From Aurantimonas coralicida (GTDB lineage Bacteria > Pseudomonadota > Alphaproteobacteria > Rhizobiales > Rhizobiaceae), in the NCBI GenBank assembly GCA_011050685.1, contig DRFF01000057.1, forward strand, positions 62,001-126,000: 64,000 bases of DNA. Direction: 5' to 3'. The position numbers were made by a program, and so were the translations under genes. A model generated the notes under the pieces. The model did not search any database. It worked only from the letters and a program-made list of their open reading frames with translations, and was not told where the DNA came from. Of this stretch, positions 9,696 to 22,352 are shown in pieces (the first letter of the stretch is position 1; every line of letters begins with the position of its first letter).

Positions 9696-11876
9696 ATGAC
9701 GGCAAAGCTTTCCACCCGACGAATTTTGATCAGCGTTCTGGCCGTCTCGATGCTGCCGGTATCGAGCTTCGCCGACGAGGCGATCCTGCCACTGACGGGT
9801 CCCAAGCCGACGATGCGCCCCATGGAACGCGCCGCAGGCATCGCCATCGATCCCGCCCGTTTCGGCGGTGCCGTTCGCGCTCCGATGCCGAACCCGGTTC
9901 TGCGATCGGCCGCAGCCCCGGCGCTGCCCGTTGCCGCCGGCGCCTTCACCGCGTCGATCGCAGCAATGCCCCGGATCGCTTCGGTTCGGCCCATGCAGGG
10001 CGAACTCAAGGACGGTCTCCAGGCGCTGTCCGACCGCGATCCGGTCAAGGCACGGGCCATTCGCGAGGGTATGATGCCGGGCTCCCTGGACAGGGACATT
10101 CTAGCCTGGGCGATCGCCCTTCAAGGCGGCAAGGACGTCCCCGCGGTCGAGATCGCCCGCACGGCGACCGATCTCGCCGATTGGCCCGGCATGGTCACGC
10201 TTCGCATCAACAGCGAAAAGGCGCTCTATCGCGAGCGGCTGCCGGCTGGCGACGTGATCCGCGCTTTCGCCGGTGGCCAGCCGGAGAGCCCCGAGGGCGC
10301 CATGGCCTTGGCCAGAGCCTATATCGCCGCCGGTGACGCGGGCCGAGCGAGGGCTCTTGTCGCGACGGTCTGGCGCGAGGAGCGGCTCGACAAGGACATT
10401 GAACGCGCGCTGCTGGCCGACTTCCAGACTCTGCTGTCGCGCGCCGACCACAAATATCGCATGGATAAGCTGCTCTATAGCGACCGTGTGACCGACGCGG
10501 GCCGTGTCGCGGGACTCGCCGGAGCCAAGGAACTCTACGCCGCTCGCGCCGCCGTTGTCCGCGGCGACGGGAATGCGGGAAAACTGCTCGGCGCGGTTCC
10601 GGACGCCCAGCGCGGCGATCCGGGCTATCGTTTCGCGCTGGTTGAATACAACCGCAAGAAAGGCAAGATCGACGCGGCGGCCGATCTTCTCGTGGGAGCG
10701 CCACGCGATTCCGCCTCGTTGGTCGATCCAGATGCCTGGTGGAACGAGCGGCGCATCGTCGCCCGCGACCTCCTCGATCTCGGCCAGCCGAAACTCGCCT
10801 ATCGGGTGGCGAGCAGTCATTCCGCCGAGAGCTCCAGCGAGGCGGTCGAGGCCGAATTCCACGCCGGCTGGATCGCGCTCAGGTTCTTGAACGATCCGCG
10901 CACGGCATCCCAGCATTTCGCGCGCATCGCGCAATTGTCGAACAAGCCGTTGTCGCTCTCGCGCGGCTATTACTGGCTGGGCCGCGCCGCCGAGGCGGGC
11001 GCCGGAGGTAACGCGGCGAACCATTACGCCACAGCCGCACGCTACGGCTCCACCTATTACGGCCAGCTTGCCGCCGCCCGGCTCGGACGGCAGCCGGCGG
11101 CGATCGCCTTCCCGCGCCCGAGCGACGCCGATCGCCGCCGCTTCGAGCAGCGCCGTGCCGTGCGCGCCATCCAGCGCCTGCAACAGATCGGATCGGACTG
11201 GCGGACCGACAGTCTCTATCGCTCCCTCGCCGGCGAACTCGACAGCCCCGGCGAACTCGCGCTGTTGTCGGTCATGGCCGAACGACGCGGCGATCACGCC
11301 CTGGTTCTCCAGGTCGGAAAACTCGCCAATCGGGGCGGCGTGGACGCGCCGGCCCTGGCCTTTCCGATCGGTGTTATCCCGGCAAGCGCCAACATTTCGT
11401 CCGCCGGCAAGGCCCTGGCCTACGCCATCGCCCGCCAGGAGAGCGCGTTCAATCCAAAGGCACGCTCGCCCGCCGGCGCGCTTGGCCTGTTGCAGCTGAT
11501 GCCGGGAACGGCCAAGAGCGTCGCGCGTAAGGCCGGCCTGCCCTATTCCGCCGAGCGGCTGACCAGCGACCCCGGCTATAACGCCACGCTCGGCGCGCGT
11601 TTTCTCGGCGAGCAGATCGCCGATTTCGGCGGCTCCTATGTCCTGACCTTCGTCGCCTACAATGCCGGGCCTCGGCGGGCGCGCGAGTGGATCGAGCGCT
11701 TCGGCGATCCCCGCGGCCAGTCCTTGGACGCGGTGATCGACTGGGTCGAGCGCATCCCATTCACCGAGACGCGGAACTACGTCCAGCGCATCATCGAGAA
11801 CTATCAGGTCTACAAGATGCGGCTCGGCGCGAGCGTCGACGTCGAACGGGATCTGCGGTTCGGGCGAACCGGATGA
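9696..11876 (+). CDS. Soluble lytic murein transglycosylase (Slt70-like)
   Basis: The 726-residue periplasmic enzyme cleaves the MurNAc-GlcNAc bond with formation of 1,6-anhydro-MurNAc. A signal peptide (RRILISVLAVSMLPVSSFA-DE) is followed by a long alpha-superhelical region and then a C-terminal SLT goose-lysozyme domain. The domain contains AIARQESAFNPKARSPAGAL with the catalytic Glu in ES, GLLQLMPGTA, VAYNAGPRRAREW, and RNYVQRIIENYQVY. Length and layout match Slt70-type enzymes. The ATG at 9696 has AAAAGG six bases upstream. It is divergent from dapA and ends just before a hairpin. Confidence 0.93.
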   Translation: MTAKLSTRRILISVLAVSMLPVSSFADEAILPLTGPKPTMRPMERAAGIAIDPARFGGAVRAPMPNPVLRSAAAPALPVAAGAFTASIAAMPRIASVRPMQGELKDGLQALSDRDPVKARAIREGMMPGSLDRDILAWAIALQGGKDVPAVEIARTATDLADWPGMVTLRINSEKALYRERLPAGDVIRAFAGGQPESPEGAMALARAYIAAGDAGRARALVATVWREERLDKDIERALLADFQTLLSRADHKYRMDKLLYSDRVTDAGRVAGLAGAKELYAARAAVVRGDGNAGKLLGAVPDAQRGDPGYRFALVEYNRKKGKIDAAADLLVGAPRDSASLVDPDAWWNERRIVARDLLDLGQPKLAYRVASSHSAESSSEAVEAEFHAGWIALRFLNDPRTASQHFARIAQLSNKPLSLSRGYYWLGRAAEAGAGGNAANHYATAARYGSTYYGQLAAARLGRQPAAIAFPRPSDADRRRFEQRRAVRAIQRLQQIGSDWRTDSLYRSLAGELDSPGELALLSVMAERRGDHALVLQVGKLANRGGVDAPALAFPIGVIPASANISSAGKALAYAIARQESAFNPKARSPAGALGLLQLMPGTAKSVARKAGLPYSAERLTSDPGYNATLGARFLGEQIADFGGSYVLTFVAYNAGPRRAREWIERFGDPRGQSLDAVIDWVERIPFTETRNYVQRIIENYQVYKMRLGASVDVERDLRFGRTG

Positions 11877-14210: not shown

Positions 14211-16853
14211 TCAGATTCTGAACAACGGCGCCCCGAGTCCGCGAAAATCGCGCTCCCGGCAGGTCAGAACGATAATCTGCAGGTCTTCGGCGGCCTTTTG
14301 CAGCACCAGATGCATGCGTTCGAGTCGTTTTTCGTCCGTGTTGACCAGGGCATCGTCGAGAATCACCGTCGCCGGATGGCCGCCCTTCTTCAGAACCTGC
14401 GCCAAGGCGATTCGGGTAACCACGGCCACCTGCTCGCGCGCGCCGGCCGAAAGGCGTTGGAAATTTTCCTCGACGCCGGCGCGATGCAGCCCCCGAATTT
14501 CCAGCGTCGTCTCGTCGAGCTCGATCTCGGTTCCTGGATGGATCAGCCGCAGATAGGGAGCCACCTGCGTCTTGATCGGTCCCAGCCAATGCTCGCGCGC
14601 CTCGCGCTGGGCCGCGAGCAGCGTCGAATGCAGCAGCTTCGATGCCTCGGCCTCGAGCGTGAGACGGCTCAAGCGGCGATCGAGGACGGTGATCTCGCCT
14701 TCGATTCGATCAATGTCCTCGCCAAGCGCCGTCAGCCCGTGGCCGCCGAGCTCACCTTCCAGCGCGGCCGCTTCCTCGCGAAGGGTTACGACCTGGCGGC
14801 GAATCTCGACCAGTGCCCGGCGCTTGGATTGAAGCGTCAAGGCGACAGTCTCGGGATCGACGCCCGCCAGTTCGCGCTGACGCTGCTCGAGAACCACGGC
14901 CTTGGCAGTCCGCTCGACTTCGGCGGCGGCCAGGTCTTCGGCCAGCGCCGCCCGGCTCCGCTTCGCTTCGGCCTCGATCTGCTCGCGCCGCAGCCGCTCG
15001 GCCTCCGCTTGGCGAAAGCCGGCCTCGCCCTCCGCCGTCGCCAATTGGGCGGAAGATTCGGCCGCCCTGCGGCGCATGCCGTCGAGTTCGGCATCCGCGG
15101 CCTCCAGCAAGGCCCTTGCGGTCCGGCGCGCGGCTCGACTGTCCGATGGATCGGCCTCCGTCTCGTTTTCCTCGGCGGACGCTCCCATCGCCGCGCTGCG
15201 CTCGGCGATCTCGCCTTCGCGAAGACCGAGCGCCGCAGTCGCCTCGGACAAGCCTTCGGGCAGGATGGCACCGAGTTGTGCCTTCAAGGTGTTGGCCGCG
15301 ATCCGCCGCTCCTCGGCGGCCTGAACGCTCCGGCGCGCCTCTTCCAGCGAGGCAACCCCGTGCCGGGACAGCAGCGTGGCGCATGCGGCCTCCGCCGTCG
15401 CGGCATCGCGGGCCACAGCTCCCCCGTCGGCGCCGGGCTCGACGGCGATCCGGCCGAAGCCTTCCAGATCGAAAACGCTGCGGCCGGTGATATCGACTGA
15501 TCCCTCCGTCGCCACCGCCTCGCCCGCCGCATCCCGCACGGCCTGACCGGCCGACGGTTCAAACCGAAGCTTTGGCGCGGCGACCGAGAGCCGGATCGCC
15601 GCCTCGCGGCGCAATTGCTCCGCCGCCTCGATCGCCGCCAGTGCCTTTGGATCGAGGCCGGCCCCGCTCGCGGCGCGGCGCAATTCGGCAAGCCGCTCCT
15701 CGAGCTCGCGCGCGGTTGCGATCCGCTTGCGAGACTTGGCCAGCTCGTCCTGCTTGCGGGACAGTTCGGTCCGAAGCTGAATCGTCTCGTCCGCCGCTTC
15801 CGCCTGTTCGGCGGCGGCCTTGGCTTCGGCCCGCCGCGCTTCGAGCCGCGCGACCTCCGAGCGCTCCTCGACCGCCCGCGCGCGGAACGCATCGAGGGAT
15901 GCGGCGATTGCCTCCGCCGCCTGCGTCACGCGTCCTCTTGTCTCGATGAGTTTATCGCGCTGACGCAGGAGTTCGGCGGCGCCGTCGCGCTTGGCAAGCG
16001 CGTGGCGAAGCTCCCGTTCGGCCTCGCCGCGTTCCCGGTCGAGACTCTCGGCGGCCCGGGACGCGGCCTCCGCCGCCTCGACCGCGGCTTCCGCCTTGGC
16101 AACCGCGACGTCGCGCTCGTAGGACAGAAGCGTTTCGCGCCGGCGCCGCAGCCGGTCGAGCTTCTCGTCATAGTCGGCGCGAAGAGCCAGTTTCGCCTGG
16201 AGCTCCGTGCGCAGTGCCTCGCGCCGCTCTTCCGCCTGGCGGATCGGCGAGGCCGACGCCACGCGCAACGTGTCGGTAAAGAAGCGATCCTGCAGCGCCT
16301 TTGTGGCGGCGACCAGCGACCGGCCGCGCTCGCCGCCGAGGATCTGGCCGACCTCCCCCTCCAGCGAGGCGGTAACGGCGTCCTTGCCGACGCCGATATC
16401 GAGGCCGCCGGTCGAGCGCCCTTGCTCGACCCACAACAAGCCGAACGCGCCCTGATGCTCGCTGAGCTTGGAATCGCCACGGCCGGGATGGGAAAAACGG
16501 AACAGCTCGGCCAGCCGCTCTTCCACCGCGTCGCCGGACAGGCTCCCGCCCGGCCAGGACAGGTCGGCCGACGGACGCTGAACGAATGCCTTGCGGAGCG
16601 TATAGGCGGTGCCGTCGATATCGAATTCCACCACGACTTCCGGCCGCGCCTGACGATTGTAGGGTGCCAGCATTTTCACGGCCTCACCGCCGGCGCGATG
16701 CTTCTGGAAGAAGGCCGCCCTGAGCGCGGTCAACAGCGTCGATTTGCCGGCTTCGTTGTCGCCGACCACGACGTTGAGCCCGGGCTCGAAGCGCGGCAGA
16801 TCGACCGAGCCGACACCGGCGAAATCCGTCAGTTGGAGCGATTTCAGGTACAT
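14211..16853 (-). CDS. SbcC/YhaN-like SMC-family ATPase
   Basis: This 880-residue protein has an N-terminal Walker A in VVVGDNEAGKSTLL (about residues 30-43), about 600 residues of Ala/Glu/Arg-rich coiled coil, and a C-terminal head with signature RLSAGAREQVAVVTRIA and Walker B VILDDALVNTD. It is the ATPase half of an SbcCD/Rad50-Mre11-type or YhaON-type DNA-end processing complex. No clear CxxC zinc hook is visible at the coiled-coil tip, which fits the YhaN subgroup better than classical SbcC. It starts 3 nt after the nuclease gene stop, so the two are cotranscribed. It lies opposite ku-ligD, consistent with a role in double-strand break repair. Confidence 0.85.
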   Translation of the reverse strand: MYLKSLQLTDFAGVGSVDLPRFEPGLNVVVGDNEAGKSTLLTALRAAFFQKHRAGGEAVKMLAPYNRQARPEVVVEFDIDGTAYTLRKAFVQRPSADLSWPGGSLSGDAVEERLAELFRFSHPGRGDSKLSEHQGAFGLLWVEQGRSTGGLDIGVGKDAVTASLEGEVGQILGGERGRSLVAATKALQDRFFTDTLRVASASPIRQAEERREALRTELQAKLALRADYDEKLDRLRRRRETLLSYERDVAVAKAEAAVEAAEAASRAAESLDRERGEAERELRHALAKRDGAAELLRQRDKLIETRGRVTQAAEAIAASLDAFRARAVEERSEVARLEARRAEAKAAAEQAEAADETIQLRTELSRKQDELAKSRKRIATARELEERLAELRRAASGAGLDPKALAAIEAAEQLRREAAIRLSVAAPKLRFEPSAGQAVRDAAGEAVATEGSVDITGRSVFDLEGFGRIAVEPGADGGAVARDAATAEAACATLLSRHGVASLEEARRSVQAAEERRIAANTLKAQLGAILPEGLSEATAALGLREGEIAERSAAMGASAEENETEADPSDSRAARRTARALLEAADAELDGMRRRAAESSAQLATAEGEAGFRQAEAERLRREQIEAEAKRSRAALAEDLAAAEVERTAKAVVLEQRQRELAGVDPETVALTLQSKRRALVEIRRQVVTLREEAAALEGELGGHGLTALGEDIDRIEGEITVLDRRLSRLTLEAEASKLLHSTLLAAQREAREHWLGPIKTQVAPYLRLIHPGTEIELDETTLEIRGLHRAGVEENFQRLSAGAREQVAVVTRIALAQVLKKGGHPATVILDDALVNTDEKRLERMHLVLQKAAEDLQIIVLTCRERDFRGLGAPLFRI

Positions 16854-16856
16854 CGG

Positions 16857-17978
16857 CTAATCGTTTCCCGACAGGCGCCGATGTTCGACATAGGCCATCC
16901 GCAGGGCCAGCTGGGCCGCCGCGCGCTCGGGGTCTTGCGGATCGGCGGCCTTCGCCCGCAGCCGTTCGATCGCGACGCGCACGAATCCGCCAACGTCGAT
17001 ATGGTCGAGATCCTCCTCGTCCGGCTCGTCCAGAAGGCCTTCGTCCGACAAGCGCAGATCGAACAGGCGCGCGCTCCAGGCCGCGAGCGCTTGATCGAGC
17101 CGAACCCGCTCGCGCAGTGACAGGCTGCCGGACAGCGTCAGCTCGAGCAGCGTCTCCCCCGGACGAGCCAATGCCGCAAGCGCATCGTCGAGCGCGCCGA
17201 TGCCGCCGTCCAGTCGCACATCCATCGACCGCCAATCGAAACGCGCGATGCGGAAACGCTCGATCCGGGGCGCGACGCCCGGCGCGTCGATCTCCACGAT
17301 CGCGACATGACCCGGTGCGTTGGCGGGGTAGCGATCCGGCTCCGGGGTCCCGGAATAGACGGTGCGCGGCGCGATCTCGACGAAGCCATGCCAATCGCCG
17401 AGCGCCAGATAGTCGAGCTTCGCCTTGTCGGCGCGGTCGTCGGCGATCGGATTGCCGGCTTCGGCCTTCTCCGGCAGCCGGTTGAGCACCGCGCCGTGGG
17501 CAAGGCCGACACGAACCGCAGACGAGGGCGTCGCGGCGTGATCGAACCATTCGGTGAGATCCGCCCCCTCGCGGCGGCGGGTCAGCGGCGCCGGGAAGAT
17601 GACGAGCGCCCCGTCCTTCAGAACCACCGGTTCGGGGCGGTCCGCGACCACGATCGTCGCCCTGGTCGTCAGGCGGCGCAGACGCGTCCAGACCGAAACG
17701 CTCAGCGCGGCGTCGTGATTACCGGGCAGCATGACCCATGGGCCACCGAAACCGGCCATGGCGTCGAGCGTGCGGTTGAGGTCACGATCCGGCACGGTGT
17801 TGTCGTCGAAGGCGTCGCCGGCTACGAGCACGGCGTCGCAACCGCGCTCCTCGGCCAGCGCGGCGATGCGGGCGACGGCGGCGAAACGCTCGGCGCGCAG
17901 TTCGCCCCGGCGGTCGGGCTCGAAATTGCCGAACGGCTTGCCGATCTGCCAGTCTGCGGTGTGAAGGATTCGGATCAA
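16857..17978 (-). CDS. SbcD/YhaO-like metallophosphoesterase (predicted DNA exonuclease)
   Basis: The 373-residue calcineurin-like phosphoesterase has ILHTADWQIGKPF at its N-terminus (D-x-H-like metal motif), VLVAGDAFDD, MLPGNHDAA and LAHGAVLNRL, the five metal-binding motifs of Mre11/SbcD nucleases. It should partner the downstream SMC-type ATPase to process DNA ends or hairpins. The start is a TTG at 17978; no upstream ATG exists and the next in-frame ATG would remove the first metal motif. The C-terminal part (about 290-373) lacks recognised domains but has helical content like SbcD caps. Its promoter region is shared with ku. Confidence 0.87.
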   Translation of the reverse strand: MIRILHTADWQIGKPFGNFEPDRRGELRAERFAAVARIAALAEERGCDAVLVAGDAFDDNTVPDRDLNRTLDAMAGFGGPWVMLPGNHDAALSVSVWTRLRRLTTRATIVVADRPEPVVLKDGALVIFPAPLTRRREGADLTEWFDHAATPSSAVRVGLAHGAVLNRLPEKAEAGNPIADDRADKAKLDYLALGDWHGFVEIAPRTVYSGTPEPDRYPANAPGHVAIVEIDAPGVAPRIERFRIARFDWRSMDVRLDGGIGALDDALAALARPGETLLELTLSGSLSLRERVRLDQALAAWSARLFDLRLSDEGLLDEPDEEDLDHIDVGGFVRVAIERLRAKAADPQDPERAAAQLALRMAYVEHRRLSGND

Positions 17979-18117
17979 GGGCAGCGCCTTGGCTGATTCA
18001 TCGATTGTCCCTGCTTAACCGCGCACCTGCCCTTGGCAAGAGGGGACGAAGCGCGCCTCGGTTTTTCAGGCCCTCCGGGACGCCTGCCGGGCGGCGCGGG
18101 AATGCTCATGGCTCGCC

Positions 18118-18143
18118 GGAACGAGTCGGGCCTTTACGCCGTT
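18118..18143 (+). promoter_or_regulatory. Consensus EcfG (general stress sigma) promoter of ku-ligD
   Basis: GGAAC at 18118-18122 is followed after exactly 17 nt by CGTT at 18140-18143. This matches the GGAAC-N16/17-CGTT consensus of EcfG/RpoE2 sigma factors, which control the general stress response in Alphaproteobacteria. The predicted transcript starts about 18,150, leaving a leader of under 40 nt with the ku ribosome site GGAG. A scan of the other intergenic regions here found no second match of this quality. Confidence 0.75.
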
Positions 18144-18186
18144 CTGTCTCCCGTAGCGGCAGTCATCGTGTCCGGAGTTAAAAAAA

Positions 18187-19137
18187 ATGGCGCCACGTCC
18201 CATCTGGAAAGGGCAGATTCGCCTGTCGCTTGTCTCAATTCCCGTCGAAATGTTCTCGGCCACCCAGTCGGGTGCGTCGATCAGCTTCCGCCAGATCCAC
18301 CGCGAGAGCGGCAAGCGCATTCATTACGACAAGGTCGTCGAGGGGATCGGTCCGGTCGACAAGGACGAGATCGTCAAGGGCTACGAAATCAGCAAGGACG
18401 AATATGTTCTCCTGACCGACGAGGAGATCGAGGACGTCAAGCTGGAGACGAAAAAGACGCTGGAACTCGTCCAGTTCGTCGATACCTGCTCCATCCCGCC
18501 GCTGTATTTCGACAAACCCTATTACGTCGTGCCCCAGGACGAACTTGCCGAGGATGCGTTCCGGGTGGTGCGCGACGCGTTGCGCCAGTCGCAGAAGACC
18601 GGCCTTGGCCAGCTCTCGCTACGCGGCAAGGAGTATCTCATTGCGCTGCGCCCCTGCGGCAACGGCCTCCTGCTCGAGACGCTGCACTATGAGGACGAGG
18701 TCCGCAAATCGGATTCGATCTTCTCCGACATCTCCGATGCGGAGACCGACGAAGACCTGCTCGACGTCGCCACCCAGCTCATCGCCAAGAAATCCGCGCC
18801 CTTCGACGCATCCGCTTTCAAGAACCACTACACCGACGCGCTGAAGAAACTGATCGCCGAGAAGCGCAAGAAGGGTGGCAAGGCGACGATCGCCATCGAG
18901 GAAGACGAACCGGCACCATCCGACCGAGGCAGCAACGTGGTCGACCTGATGGCGACGCTGAAGAAGAGCCTGGAAGGCGACGGCGGTTCCGCCGGGGTGA
19001 AGGCTGCGGCAGCGAGGGATCGGAAGCCACCCGCCAAAGCACGGGCGACAAAGTCGCCCGCCGCCGCCTCGGGCAAATCCGCGAAGTCCGCGAAGCCGGT
19101 CACGAAGAGTCCGTCCAGCCGGCGCAAAAGCGCCTGA
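18187..19137 (+). CDS. ku: Non-homologous end joining protein Ku
   Basis: Ku forms a ring-shaped homodimer that binds double-strand DNA ends and recruits LigD. The 316-residue protein starts MAPRPIWKGQIRLSLVSIPV and has the conserved core (ISFRQIHRESGKRIHYDKVV, YYVVPQDELAEDAFRVVRDA) over about residues 10-230. The C-terminus is a Lys/Ala/Ser-rich basic tail (about 270-316) of the type that contacts DNA or LigD. The ATG at 18187 follows GGAG at eight bases. The gene is 11 nt from ligD, so one transcript is expected, driven by the stress promoter upstream. Confidence 0.96.
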   Translation: MAPRPIWKGQIRLSLVSIPVEMFSATQSGASISFRQIHRESGKRIHYDKVVEGIGPVDKDEIVKGYEISKDEYVLLTDEEIEDVKLETKKTLELVQFVDTCSIPPLYFDKPYYVVPQDELAEDAFRVVRDALRQSQKTGLGQLSLRGKEYLIALRPCGNGLLLETLHYEDEVRKSDSIFSDISDAETDEDLLDVATQLIAKKSAPFDASAFKNHYTDALKKLIAEKRKKGGKATIAIEEDEPAPSDRGSNVVDLMATLKKSLEGDGGSAGVKAAAARDRKPPAKARATKSPAAASGKSAKSAKPVTKSPSSRRKSA

Positions 19138-19148
19138 GGATCGGCGCG

Positions 19149-21743
19149 ATGGCGGCGAAGGGCGACGACCTCCTCGGCACCTACCGGAAGAAGCGGGACT
19201 TCTCGAAAACCCGCGAACCGGCAGGATCGGCCAATGCGCTCTCCGGCGATGGCGCCTTGTTCTTCTGCGTCCAGAAGCACGCCGCGACCCGGCTTCATTA
19301 CGACTTCCGCATCGAATGGGACGGCGTTCTGAAAAGCTGGGCGGTGACCAAGGGTCCCAGCCTCGATCCGGCCGCCAAGCGCCTGGCGGTCAGGACCGAG
19401 GACCACCCGATGGATTACGGGACCTTCGAGGGCACCATTCCGAAGGGCCAATATGGCGGCGGCACGGTCATGCTCTGGGACCGGGGTTCCTGGGAGCCGC
19501 TGGAAGACCCGGAAAAGGGTTTCGAGAAAGGCAGCCTGAAGATGCGCCTGTCCGGCGAGCGGATGCGGGGCAACTGGGCGCTGGTGCGCATGAAGCCACG
19601 CGGCAAGGAGACGCGCGAAAACTGGCTGCTGATCAAGGAAAAGGACGCGGCGGTCGACCGGCGCCGCAACCTCCTCAGCGCCGACACCAGCGTCAAGACC
19701 GGCCGCACCATGGCGGCGATCGCTGAGGGCGACGAGAGCTGGGCCGAGACCCGGCGACCCGGCGACCCGGCGGCCAAATCCAGCCGAACCGGAACCAAGC
19801 AGGCGGCCGAGACGAACACGAAAGCAAAGTCTTCCCCTTCCCTGCCGCTGCCGCGATTCCATGCGCCGCAACTGGCCACGCTGGTCGACGCCGCTCCCGA
19901 GGGCGGAGACTGGCTGCACGAGATGAAATATGACGGCTACCGTGTCATGATCGCGGTCGGCAAAGGGCAGGTGCGATGCTGGACCCGCAACGAAAAGGAC
20001 TGGACCGACAAGTTCGGGCCGGTCGGCGAGGCCGCGAAGCATCTTGATTGCGGCAATGCCCTGATCGATGGCGAGATCGTCGCCTTCGATGACAACGGAA
20101 AAACCGACTTCTCGACACTGCAGCGGCATCTCAGCGAGGGTGGCCCCCTTGCTTGTTTCTGCTTCGACCTGCTGCATCTGGACGGCAAGGATCTGACCAA
20201 CCGGCCGCTCGCCCAGCGCAAGACCGCGCTGAAGGCGCTGCTGGATCGTACGCCCTCCGATCTGCTTCTTTATAGCGAGCACGTTTTGGGCAGCGGCCCG
20301 GCGGTGTTTGAGAAAATTTGCGGAGCGGGTCACGAGGGCATTATCGCCAAGCGCGCCGACGCGCCCTACCGATCGGGACGCGGCAAATCCTGGCTGAAGG
20401 TCAAATGCACAAGGCGGCAGGAATTCGTCGTCGGCGGCTGGTCACCGTCGGACAAGAAGGGTCGCGCCTTCTCCTCGATCCTTGTCGGAGTCATGGAAGA
20501 TGATCGCCTGCGCTATCGCGGCCGGGTCGGCTCCGGTTTCGATCAACAGACGCTGGAGGATCTCGCCGATCGCTTCGACGCCCTCTCCCGCCAGACCTCG
20601 CCCTTCGATGCGCTGCCGAATGACGTCAAGCGCGGCGCCCGTTTCGTCACCCCAAAGCTCGTCGCCGAGATCGATTTCGCCGAGTTTACCGCCGACGGCC
20701 ATATCCGCCACGGCGTGTTCAAGGGCCTGCGCGAGGACAAGGCGGCCGAAGTCGTGGCGGACGAACGACCGCATCTGACGAAATCCTCAGGCGCGAAGAC
20801 CGCAACAGCCGAAAAGCGCGGCGGCGCGCCTATCTCCCGTCGCTCCGGCAGCGCCCCCACCACCGTCGCCGGTGTTCGGCTCACCAGCCCGGATCGCGTG
20901 GTTTACGACAGTCAGGGCGTTACCAAGCTCGATCTGGCGCATTATTATGAAGCAGTGGCCGCGCGCATGCTGGAGCATGCCGGCAACCGCCCGGTCTCCC
21001 TGGTGCGCTGTCCGCAGGGGCGCAACAAGCACTGCTTCTTCCAAAAGCACGACACCGGCGGCTTCCCCAATGCCGTGAAGACGGTCGCGGTCGCCGAAAA
21101 GGACGGCGGCACCGCCGACTATCTCACCATGCCGGACGCCGCGGCGCTCGTCGGAGCGGTGCAGATGGGAACGCTGGAATTCCACATCTGGGGCGCACGC
21201 AACGACCGGTTGGAAAAGCCCGACCGGCTGGTCTTCGACCTCGACCCGGACGAAGGCCTGGGCTTTGCCGATGTGAAGACGGCGGCCTTCGATCTTCGCG
21301 ACCGGCTCGCCGATCTTGGCCTCCAGAGCTTTGCCATGGTCACCGGCGGCAAGGGCGTGCATGTGGTCGTGCCGCTCGAACGGCGGCAGGGCTGGACGGA
21401 ATTAAAGGCCTTCGCCAAGGGCTTTGCCCAAACCCAGGCCGACACCGAGCCGGAGCGCTTCGTCGCCACCATGTCCAAGGCCAAGCGGAAGGGCCGGATC
21501 TTCATCGACTGGCTGCGCAACGAGCGCGGCGCGACGGCCATCACTCCATACTCCACGCGCTCGCGCGCGGGGGCGCCCGTGGCAACGCCCGTCGGCTGGG
21601 CCGAACTGGAGACGCTCGAAGCAGCCAATGGCTTCGACATTGAGGCGGTGCTGCAGCGGCTACAGGACGCCGACCCATGGTCCGACTATGGTTCGGTGCG
21701 CCAGTCCATCACCAAGGCGATGCTGTCGACGGTCGCTGGGTGA
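19149..21743 (+). CDS. ligD: ATP-dependent DNA ligase D (PE-LIG-POL)
   Basis: This 864-residue protein carries all three NHEJ activities. The 3'-phosphoesterase domain covers about residues 35-150, with KHAATRLHYDFR supplying His44, His50 and Asp52. The adenylating ligase spans about 240-545, with catalytic Lys260 in EMKYDGYRV and the motif IIAKRADAPYRSGR. The archaeo-eukaryotic primase-like polymerase spans about 575-860, with the acidic pair in DLDPDEG (697-699) and later IDWLRNERGATAI. The order PE-LIG-POL is the common proteobacterial one, unlike mycobacterial POL-PE-LIG. All key residues appear intact, so Ku-LigD here should be a complete end-joining system. Confidence 0.96.
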   Translation: MAAKGDDLLGTYRKKRDFSKTREPAGSANALSGDGALFFCVQKHAATRLHYDFRIEWDGVLKSWAVTKGPSLDPAAKRLAVRTEDHPMDYGTFEGTIPKGQYGGGTVMLWDRGSWEPLEDPEKGFEKGSLKMRLSGERMRGNWALVRMKPRGKETRENWLLIKEKDAAVDRRRNLLSADTSVKTGRTMAAIAEGDESWAETRRPGDPAAKSSRTGTKQAAETNTKAKSSPSLPLPRFHAPQLATLVDAAPEGGDWLHEMKYDGYRVMIAVGKGQVRCWTRNEKDWTDKFGPVGEAAKHLDCGNALIDGEIVAFDDNGKTDFSTLQRHLSEGGPLACFCFDLLHLDGKDLTNRPLAQRKTALKALLDRTPSDLLLYSEHVLGSGPAVFEKICGAGHEGIIAKRADAPYRSGRGKSWLKVKCTRRQEFVVGGWSPSDKKGRAFSSILVGVMEDDRLRYRGRVGSGFDQQTLEDLADRFDALSRQTSPFDALPNDVKRGARFVTPKLVAEIDFAEFTADGHIRHGVFKGLREDKAAEVVADERPHLTKSSGAKTATAEKRGGAPISRRSGSAPTTVAGVRLTSPDRVVYDSQGVTKLDLAHYYEAVAARMLEHAGNRPVSLVRCPQGRNKHCFFQKHDTGGFPNAVKTVAVAEKDGGTADYLTMPDAAALVGAVQMGTLEFHIWGARNDRLEKPDRLVFDLDPDEGLGFADVKTAAFDLRDRLADLGLQSFAMVTGGKGVHVVVPLERRQGWTELKAFAKGFAQTQADTEPERFVATMSKAKRKGRIFIDWLRNERGATAITPYSTRSRAGAPVATPVGWAELETLEAANGFDIEAVLQRLQDADPWSDYGSVRQSITKAMLSTVAG

Positions 21744-21815
21744 CGAAGCGGCGAAACGCTTGATTCCCGCCAGCGCCTGACGCAATTTCGCCGCCGCAAC
21801 CGGAGGAATTTGCTG

Positions 21816-22352
21816 ATGCCCCTTTACGCACTCGACGGCGACCGCCCCGAAACCTCGCCTGAGAGCGAGTTCTTCGTTGCGCCGGGCGCCCATGTCATCG
21901 GACGGGTACGCCTCGGCAAAAACGCGAATATCTGGTTCGGCTCGGTGCTGCGCGGCGACAATGAATGGATGACGATCGGCGAGAACACCAACATCCAGGA
22001 CAATTGCACCCTGCACAGCGACCCCGGATTTCCGCTGACCATCGGCGCAGGCTGCACGATCGGCCACGGCGCCATCGTCCATGGCTGCACCATCGGTGCG
22101 AATTCACTGATCGGCATGGGCGCGACGGTCCTGAACGGCGCCCGGATCGGCAAGAATTCGATCGTCGGCGCCAATGCGCTGGTGACCGAGGGCAAGGAGT
22201 TTCCAGACAATTCCCTGATTGTCGGCGCGCCCGCCAAGGTGGCGCGCACGCTCGATGACGCAGCGGTCGCCGGGCTCAAGGCCGCCGCCGAGCACTATGT
22301 CGCCAACGCGCGACGCTTCGCCAAGGGGCTCGAGCGCGTCGATCCCGAGTGA
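21816..22352 (+). CDS. Gamma-class carbonic anhydrase-like hexapeptide protein
   Basis: The 178-residue protein is a left-handed beta-helix built from hexapeptide repeats (VIGRVRLGKNANIWFGSVLR, IGAGCTIGHGAIVHG, IGANSLIGMGATVLNG). The three zinc ligands of the family are visible as His in CTLHSD and the two in TIGHGAIVHG. Such proteins (YrdA/CaiE group) form trimers; many lack proven carbonic anhydrase activity, so a metal-dependent acyl or hydratase role is also possible. The ATG at 21816 has GGAGGA nine bases upstream, which rules out a TTG six bases earlier. It lies 72 nt after ligD and may be read from the same transcript. Confidence 0.9.
   Translation: MPLYALDGDRPETSPESEFFVAPGAHVIGRVRLGKNANIWFGSVLRGDNEWMTIGENTNIQDNCTLHSDPGFPLTIGAGCTIGHGAIVHGCTIGANSLIGMGATVLNGARIGKNSIVGANALVTEGKEFPDNSLIVGAPAKVARTLDDAAVAGLKAAAEHYVANARRFAKGLERVDPE

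Follow-up and report, generated by a model that had tools for sequence, protein, structure and literature searches.

Control of ku, or of ku and ligD together, by the general stress sigma factor EcfG is already known in kind, having been measured in Sphingomonas and Sphingopyxis and reported for Sinorhizobium. We describe here an element of this sort in Aurantimonas coralicida, within a stretch of 64,000 nucleotides (bases 62001–126000 of contig C57, in a genome of 4.86 Mb) that we call the window. The element, GGAAC-N17-CGTT at positions 18118–18143 (26 bp), lies ahead of adjacent ku and ligD genes, and it is very probably an EcfG promoter that drives the two as a single transcript.

In Sinorhizobium meliloti the sigma factor concerned is RpoE2, which we take to be orthologous to EcfG, and Dupuy et al. 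2019 is reportedly the primary paper on RpoE2-induced non-homologous end joining (NHEJ) in this species. The initial annotation of the window had invoked the dependence of some S. meliloti ku genes on RpoE2, and a passage of a review (PMC12844678) attributes the induction of both NHEJ pathways to this sigma factor. The likeness to the window is in the stress induction of end joining, which is predicted here, whereas S. meliloti has several ku/ligD sets and only one ku was found in the Aurantimonas genome among the matches listed. In Sphingopyxis granuli TFA, portions of PMC7083833 assign both genes, ku and ligD, to the EcfG regulon. Expression of ku drops to 0.16-fold of the wild-type level in the ecfG2 mutant and in the double mutant, against 1.34-fold in the ecfG1 mutant, and the EcfG promoter is given as GGAAC-N16-CGTT, with flexible -10 boxes and with transcription optimal when the box is CGTT. 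As in the window, ku-ligD stands behind a GGAAC -35 element there, and the optimal CGTT is the -10 of the window, although EcfG dependence is measured in S. granuli and predicted here. Ku gene #1102 of Sphingomonas melonis Fr1 appears in part of PMC6599016 as EcfG-dependent (log2 ratio -3.2) and also has GGAAC, located 30 bp ahead of its coding sequence, but its -10 is AATT rather than the CGTT of the window; the promoter form given in that portion of the paper is GGAAC-N17-20-GTT. For Mesorhizobium loti MAFF303099, a section of PMC3989490 records that heat induces three of its four ku homologues, a single one of its three ligD genes and also an rpoE2-like gene; heat induction is measured there, and stress control is predicted from promoter sequence here.

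The Aurantimonas locus is organized as follows.

18118–18122, + strand: -35 element GGAAC of the predicted EcfG promoter, exact match
18123–18139, + strand: spacer of 17 nt between the -35 and -10 elements
18140–18143, + strand: -10 element CGTT of the predicted EcfG promoter, exact match
18144–18186, + strand: 5' leader with the predicted transcription start region (start presumably at about 18150)
18174–18177, + strand: Shine-Dalgarno-like GGAG ahead of ku, from sequence
18187–19137, + strand: ku, 316 aa (Pfam Ku PF02735, 171.7 bits)
19149–21743, + strand: ligD, 864 aa, with phosphoesterase, ligase and primase-polymerase domains

The ATG of ku at 18187 follows the -10 element by 43 nt, in agreement with the distance of about 45 nt in the initial annotation, which was also right that both elements are exact and at N17 spacing. 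Only 11 nt separate ku from ligD on the same strand. The LigD product matches LigD_N (PF13298), DNA_ligase_A_M (PF01068), DNA_ligase_A_C (PF04679) and LigD_Prim-Pol (PF21686), and from these domains and the adjacency of the genes the operon is predicted to carry out end joining. The ku gene is 93–94% identical to those of three Aurantimonas records (L062–L064). Within the predicted ku leader, outside the promoter elements, we also note that GCGGCAGTC at 18156–18164 recurs across the aligned Aurantimonas sequences.

The expected regulators are encoded in the same genome (G000), where genes for PhyR, NepR and an extracytoplasmic function (ECF) sigma factor lie side by side on contig C190, and phyR is itself preceded by GGAAC-N16-CGTT, 45 bp before its start. 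There are 44 exact N16/17 matches genome-wide; others among them precede plausible genes, which we judge by their sequences to be rpoH-like, YciF-like, PRC-barrel and DUF2188-like (a domain of unknown function), and spacers of both 16 and 17 are in use. The exact elements, the permitted spacing, the position, the conservation in relatives and the absence from non-alphaproteobacterial ku genes scored (both described below), and the PhyR-NepR-EcfG core in the genome together support the promoter assigned by the initial annotation. We infer that EcfG binds the element, that ku and ligD are co-transcribed from the start predicted above, and that stress induces them and raises end joining. On this model, PhyR phosphorylated in response to stress would take NepR away from EcfG, RNA polymerase carrying EcfG would initiate near 18150, and a single transcript would supply both Ku and LigD. 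The physiological setting of desiccation, heat, stationary phase and a single chromosome copy may apply here by analogy, resting on precedent in other species.

Conservation of the motif ahead of ku

A search of orthologous loci, proposed with the initial annotation, was made in 80 related loci, of which one is the window and 79 are named records, with up to 300 bp of upstream DNA, or 148 bp in one case. We refer to GGAAC-N16/17-CGTT as the exact motif and to GGAAC-N16/17-NNTT as the relaxed motif. The exact motif precedes ku in 34 of the 80 loci (33 named loci and the window), at -57 to -69 in 30 of them, and the spacer is 16 in 15 loci and 17 in 19. Scanning all spacers from 10 to 25 yielded only three further matches at 10 and one at 21, and across 500 permuted motifs the average count in these loci was 0.14 and the highest 2. 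The controls are similarly clean, with seven exact matches in 2074 other 300-bp stretches of the same loci and none in 80 on the reverse strand. It is on this phylogenetic conservation that the far-above-chance status of the motif rests.

The distribution is uneven among taxonomic groups, which were assigned from record titles. Counted as exact, relaxed and no motif respectively, the Aurantimonas group has 14, 0 and 1, with Jiella the exception among its 15 named loci; Devosia and Pelagibacterium have 15, 3 and 1; and the Rhodobacterales have 3, 3 and 12. The motif is found solely in relaxed form among the Rhizobiaceae-like loci (0, 6 and 4), the Sphingomonadales (0, 8 and 1) and Afifella (0, 2 and 0). 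The two Acetobacterales loci lack it (0, 0 and 2), and the other named loci have 1, 1 and 2. The initial annotation had held that control extends over the whole Ku-LigD operon here, as opposed to some ku genes in S. meliloti. Such control is indeed what we predict, but it does not set this locus apart, as ku-ligD of S. granuli is also EcfG-controlled (in the portions of PMC7083833 already described) and 77 of the 80 loci have ligD 3' of ku in the same orientation.

A larger survey extends this picture. From among the matches listed we drew 298 ku genes, nearly all alphaproteobacterial, of which 281 remained after removal of pairs with identical upstream sequence and N-terminus, and 280 of these have at least 130 bp of upstream DNA. 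Within 130 bp of the start, 97 of the 280 have the exact motif and 165 the relaxed motif, and CGTT is the commonest -10 among the latter (97/165). Over 300 bp of upstream sequence and spacers of 12 to 22, exact boxes number 58 at spacing 16 and 45 at 17, with none at 13–15 or 18–20, one at 12, two at 21 and one at 22. For permuted exact motifs the average was 0.2 and the maximum 7, and for permuted relaxed motifs the average was 2.5, their maximum of 165 being the true motif redrawn. Eighteen further alphaproteobacterial ku genes outside the 280 include one exact and 11 relaxed motifs, and no motif, even relaxed, was found in the 27 scored of 28 non-alphaproteobacterial ku genes among the matches listed.

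The motif is shared by two far-apart types of Ku, one encoded by single ku-ligD loci and the other by convergent or tandem ku pairs. In the type near that of the window (n = 119) there are 46 exact and 27 additional relaxed motifs, and in the more distant type, often found in ku pairs (n = 161), 51 exact and 41 additional relaxed motifs. The position within these arrangements is regular: in tandems of ku genes the first gene has a relaxed motif at nine of ten loci and the second at none of ten, and in 24 of 30 convergent pairs a motif, exact or relaxed, is present on both arms. The motif marks operon heads. Mapped onto a FastTree tree of Ku, the relaxed label requires 39 changes, where shuffled labels average 88.8, and the exact label 49, where they average 80.9; the motif is inherited, with many gains or losses.

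Several records in these samples require comment. The ku matches at L147 and L300 in the survey, and at L323 in the non-alphaproteobacterial set, have no start codon. L125, with 5 bp of upstream DNA, was excluded from the motif counts of both the 80 loci and the 280 genes, and the 280 include records titled as Gemmatimonas (L098) and as a Flavobacteriaceae metagenome-assembled genome (MAG; L129).

Chance, other sigma factors and other promoters

The initial annotation had stressed that the ku-proximal site is the only match in the intergenic regions of the window. This is true of the N17 form, which has a single exact match in the entire window, counting both strands, but it is weak evidence, since at least one match also appears in 44 of 100 shuffles and 0.59 are expected by chance per window. 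Allowing spacers of 15 to 19 adds one N19 match at 10529; no exact N16 match is present in the window on either strand, and one-mismatch matches stand at chance for both N16 (15, with 17.4 expected) and N17 (12, with 16.8 expected). Genome-wide, the 44 exact N16/17 matches compare with 84 for a reversed control pattern. We reject match counting as support and do not argue from the site being the only one, because the counts in the window are at chance and that in the genome is below the reversed control. With an N17 match expected about half the time in a 64-kb window, and fewer matches in the genome than for the reversed pattern, the site might be dismissed as a functionless chance occurrence. 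We give this explanation almost no credence, however, in view of the conservation at a similar place before ku across several orders, the narrow limits on the spacer and the clean controls. Under a first-order Markov model, an exact N16/17 match would arise by chance in this 208-bp intergenic region, on the right strand, with a probability of about 0.002.

Two further explanations accept a role for promoters but assign it differently. The element could be a promoter for an ECF sigma factor other than EcfG that recognizes a similar site; GGAAC-type -35 elements are common to many ECF sigma factors, and detected NepR tracks the motif poorly across the class. We consider this quite improbable, though, as ku expression is lowered in EcfG mutants of two sphingomonads, and phyR of the Aurantimonas genome bears the same kind of element. 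All ten class-sample genomes with an exact motif are positive for PF22029 (PhyR/EcfG), and no motif is present in the four scored ku genomes that are negative for it; this also speaks for EcfG, but weakly, given that 53 of 59 ku genomes are positive anyway. It is likewise unlikely, if somewhat less so, that ku-ligD is mainly under a housekeeping or LexA/SOS promoter to which EcfG adds little. This would accommodate the many Rhodobacterales loci and the one Aurantimonas-group locus that lack the motif, and alphaproteobacterial housekeeping promoters are poorly predicted by a sigma-70 scan such as ours. Against it, no sigma-70-type match was found upstream of ku, the sole match in 17900–22000 lying inside ligD, and the region 17979–18190 contains no GTTC-N7-GTTC box, which we take to be the LexA/SOS operator, with up to one mismatch. 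SOS control and a sigma-70 promoter for ku-ligD therefore find no support in the box and sigma-70 scans. The box is rare before ku generally (4/280 and 5/280 in the two orientations). We also rejected a weaker reverse-strand site, at 18145–18120 with one mismatch, that overlaps the promoter; it arises from the symmetry of AACG and CGTT, and Aurantimonas sequences with CGTTGAG do not preserve it.

Several observations weigh against EcfG control of ku, in addition to the lack of genome-wide enrichment of the bare motif noted above. The motif is not universal, as 115 of the 280 ku genes are without even its relaxed form, and the same is true of 12 of the 18 named Rhodobacterales loci and of Jiella, one of the 15 in the Aurantimonas group. 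One ku gene on pSymA of S. meliloti, read as a positive control, lacks GGAAC throughout the 300 bp upstream of its start. In the class sample, the motif is about as frequent in NepR-positive (10/33) as in NepR-negative (6/19) ku genomes, NepR being short and easily missed, whereas among the relatives it occurs in 70 of 87 NepR-positive and one of four NepR-negative ku genomes. The underlying genome table covers, among the matches listed, 91 of the 93 relatives that have ku and 55 of the 59 ku genomes in the class sample; G000, G036 and G153 fall in both samples and are counted with the relatives. PF22029 is present in 53 of 59 ku genomes and in 114 of 328 others (Fisher p 7e-16, with genome size and kinship uncontrolled), but we do not lean on this co-occurrence, because of those uncontrolled factors and because the profile also matches the sigma factor itself.

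End joining as a probable general-stress function

EcfG control of ku-ligD in Aurantimonas appears to be one instance of a wider pattern. In the Alphaproteobacteria, end joining is probably a general-stress function by default, with EcfG-type promoters before both far-apart Ku types, usually on both arms of convergent pairs, and at operon heads, and with ku moved beside PhyR or NepR genes in a few lineages. If so, stress control over error-prone repair has been repeatedly recruited or strongly retained. The breadth across two Ku types and the four genomes in which ku adjoins a PhyR- or NepR-like gene are new as far as our literature search reaches, and these, together with the operon-head pattern, go beyond the initial annotation. 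No class-wide statement of a stress-promoter rule for ku was found in searches of an open-licence library, although one may already have been published, and ku or repair terms gave nothing useful in PMC3616915, PMC6180224 and PMC4842269.

Single-species reports would thereby become a testable rule, in which general stress switches on template-free, error-prone mending of DNA, and joining of foreign DNA, in many alphaproteobacteria. The rule bears on desiccation survival, stress-linked mutation and the acquisition of foreign DNA. The ku genes without a site, as at the 12 Rhodobacterales loci, provide natural contrasts.

In at least four genomes of the class, ku adjoins genes resembling the general stress response core, PhyR-like in three and NepR-like in one. 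In G444 a phyR-like gene is followed on the same strand by ku after a 95-nt gap, and the exact motif lies ahead of phyR. In G525 an exact motif stands before ku and a ligD-like gene, and 1.8 kb further on the opposite strand encodes a phyR-like product. The phyR-like gene of G270 is divergent from a ligD frame that has a ku-like stretch at its start, with 214 nt between them. In G556 the genes ligD and ku and a frame resembling nepR (27.1 bits against a cut-off of 25.7) share one strand, with no motif in the stretch scanned. These neighbours were spotted by reading coordinates in the 59 ku genomes among the matches listed, and they are only leads, because no systematic count or control was made. 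The loci with ku or ku-ligD beside PhyR- or NepR-like genes are as follows.

L348, 14276–16130, with an exact EcfG-type site ahead of phyR-ku
L350, 2589–7264
L349, 4071–7965
L351, 2739–6669

Neighbouring genes and minor observations

Divergent from ku-ligD in the window, 14211–17978 on the - strand encodes an SbcC/Rad50-like ATPase and a calcineurin-like (SbcD-like) phosphoesterase. We considered these as partners of ku and rejected them: an SbcD/SbcC-like pair lies beside ku at nine of the 80 loci (eight Aurantimonas and Mangrovicella only; a few loci have little upstream DNA), which is probably local synteny.

The ku genes of L098, L125 and L129, titled as Gemmatimonas or Flavobacteriaceae MAG, are 56–63% identical to that of the window, and that of L129 has an exact EcfG-type site upstream; these records are probably mis-binned contigs. 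Upstream of ku on pSymA of S. meliloti 1021 (L347, 15328–16200), the DNA immediately before the gene can be read, by eye, as a lysine/alanine-rich tail resembling a Ku C terminus, which may be left over from another ku gene that once preceded it.

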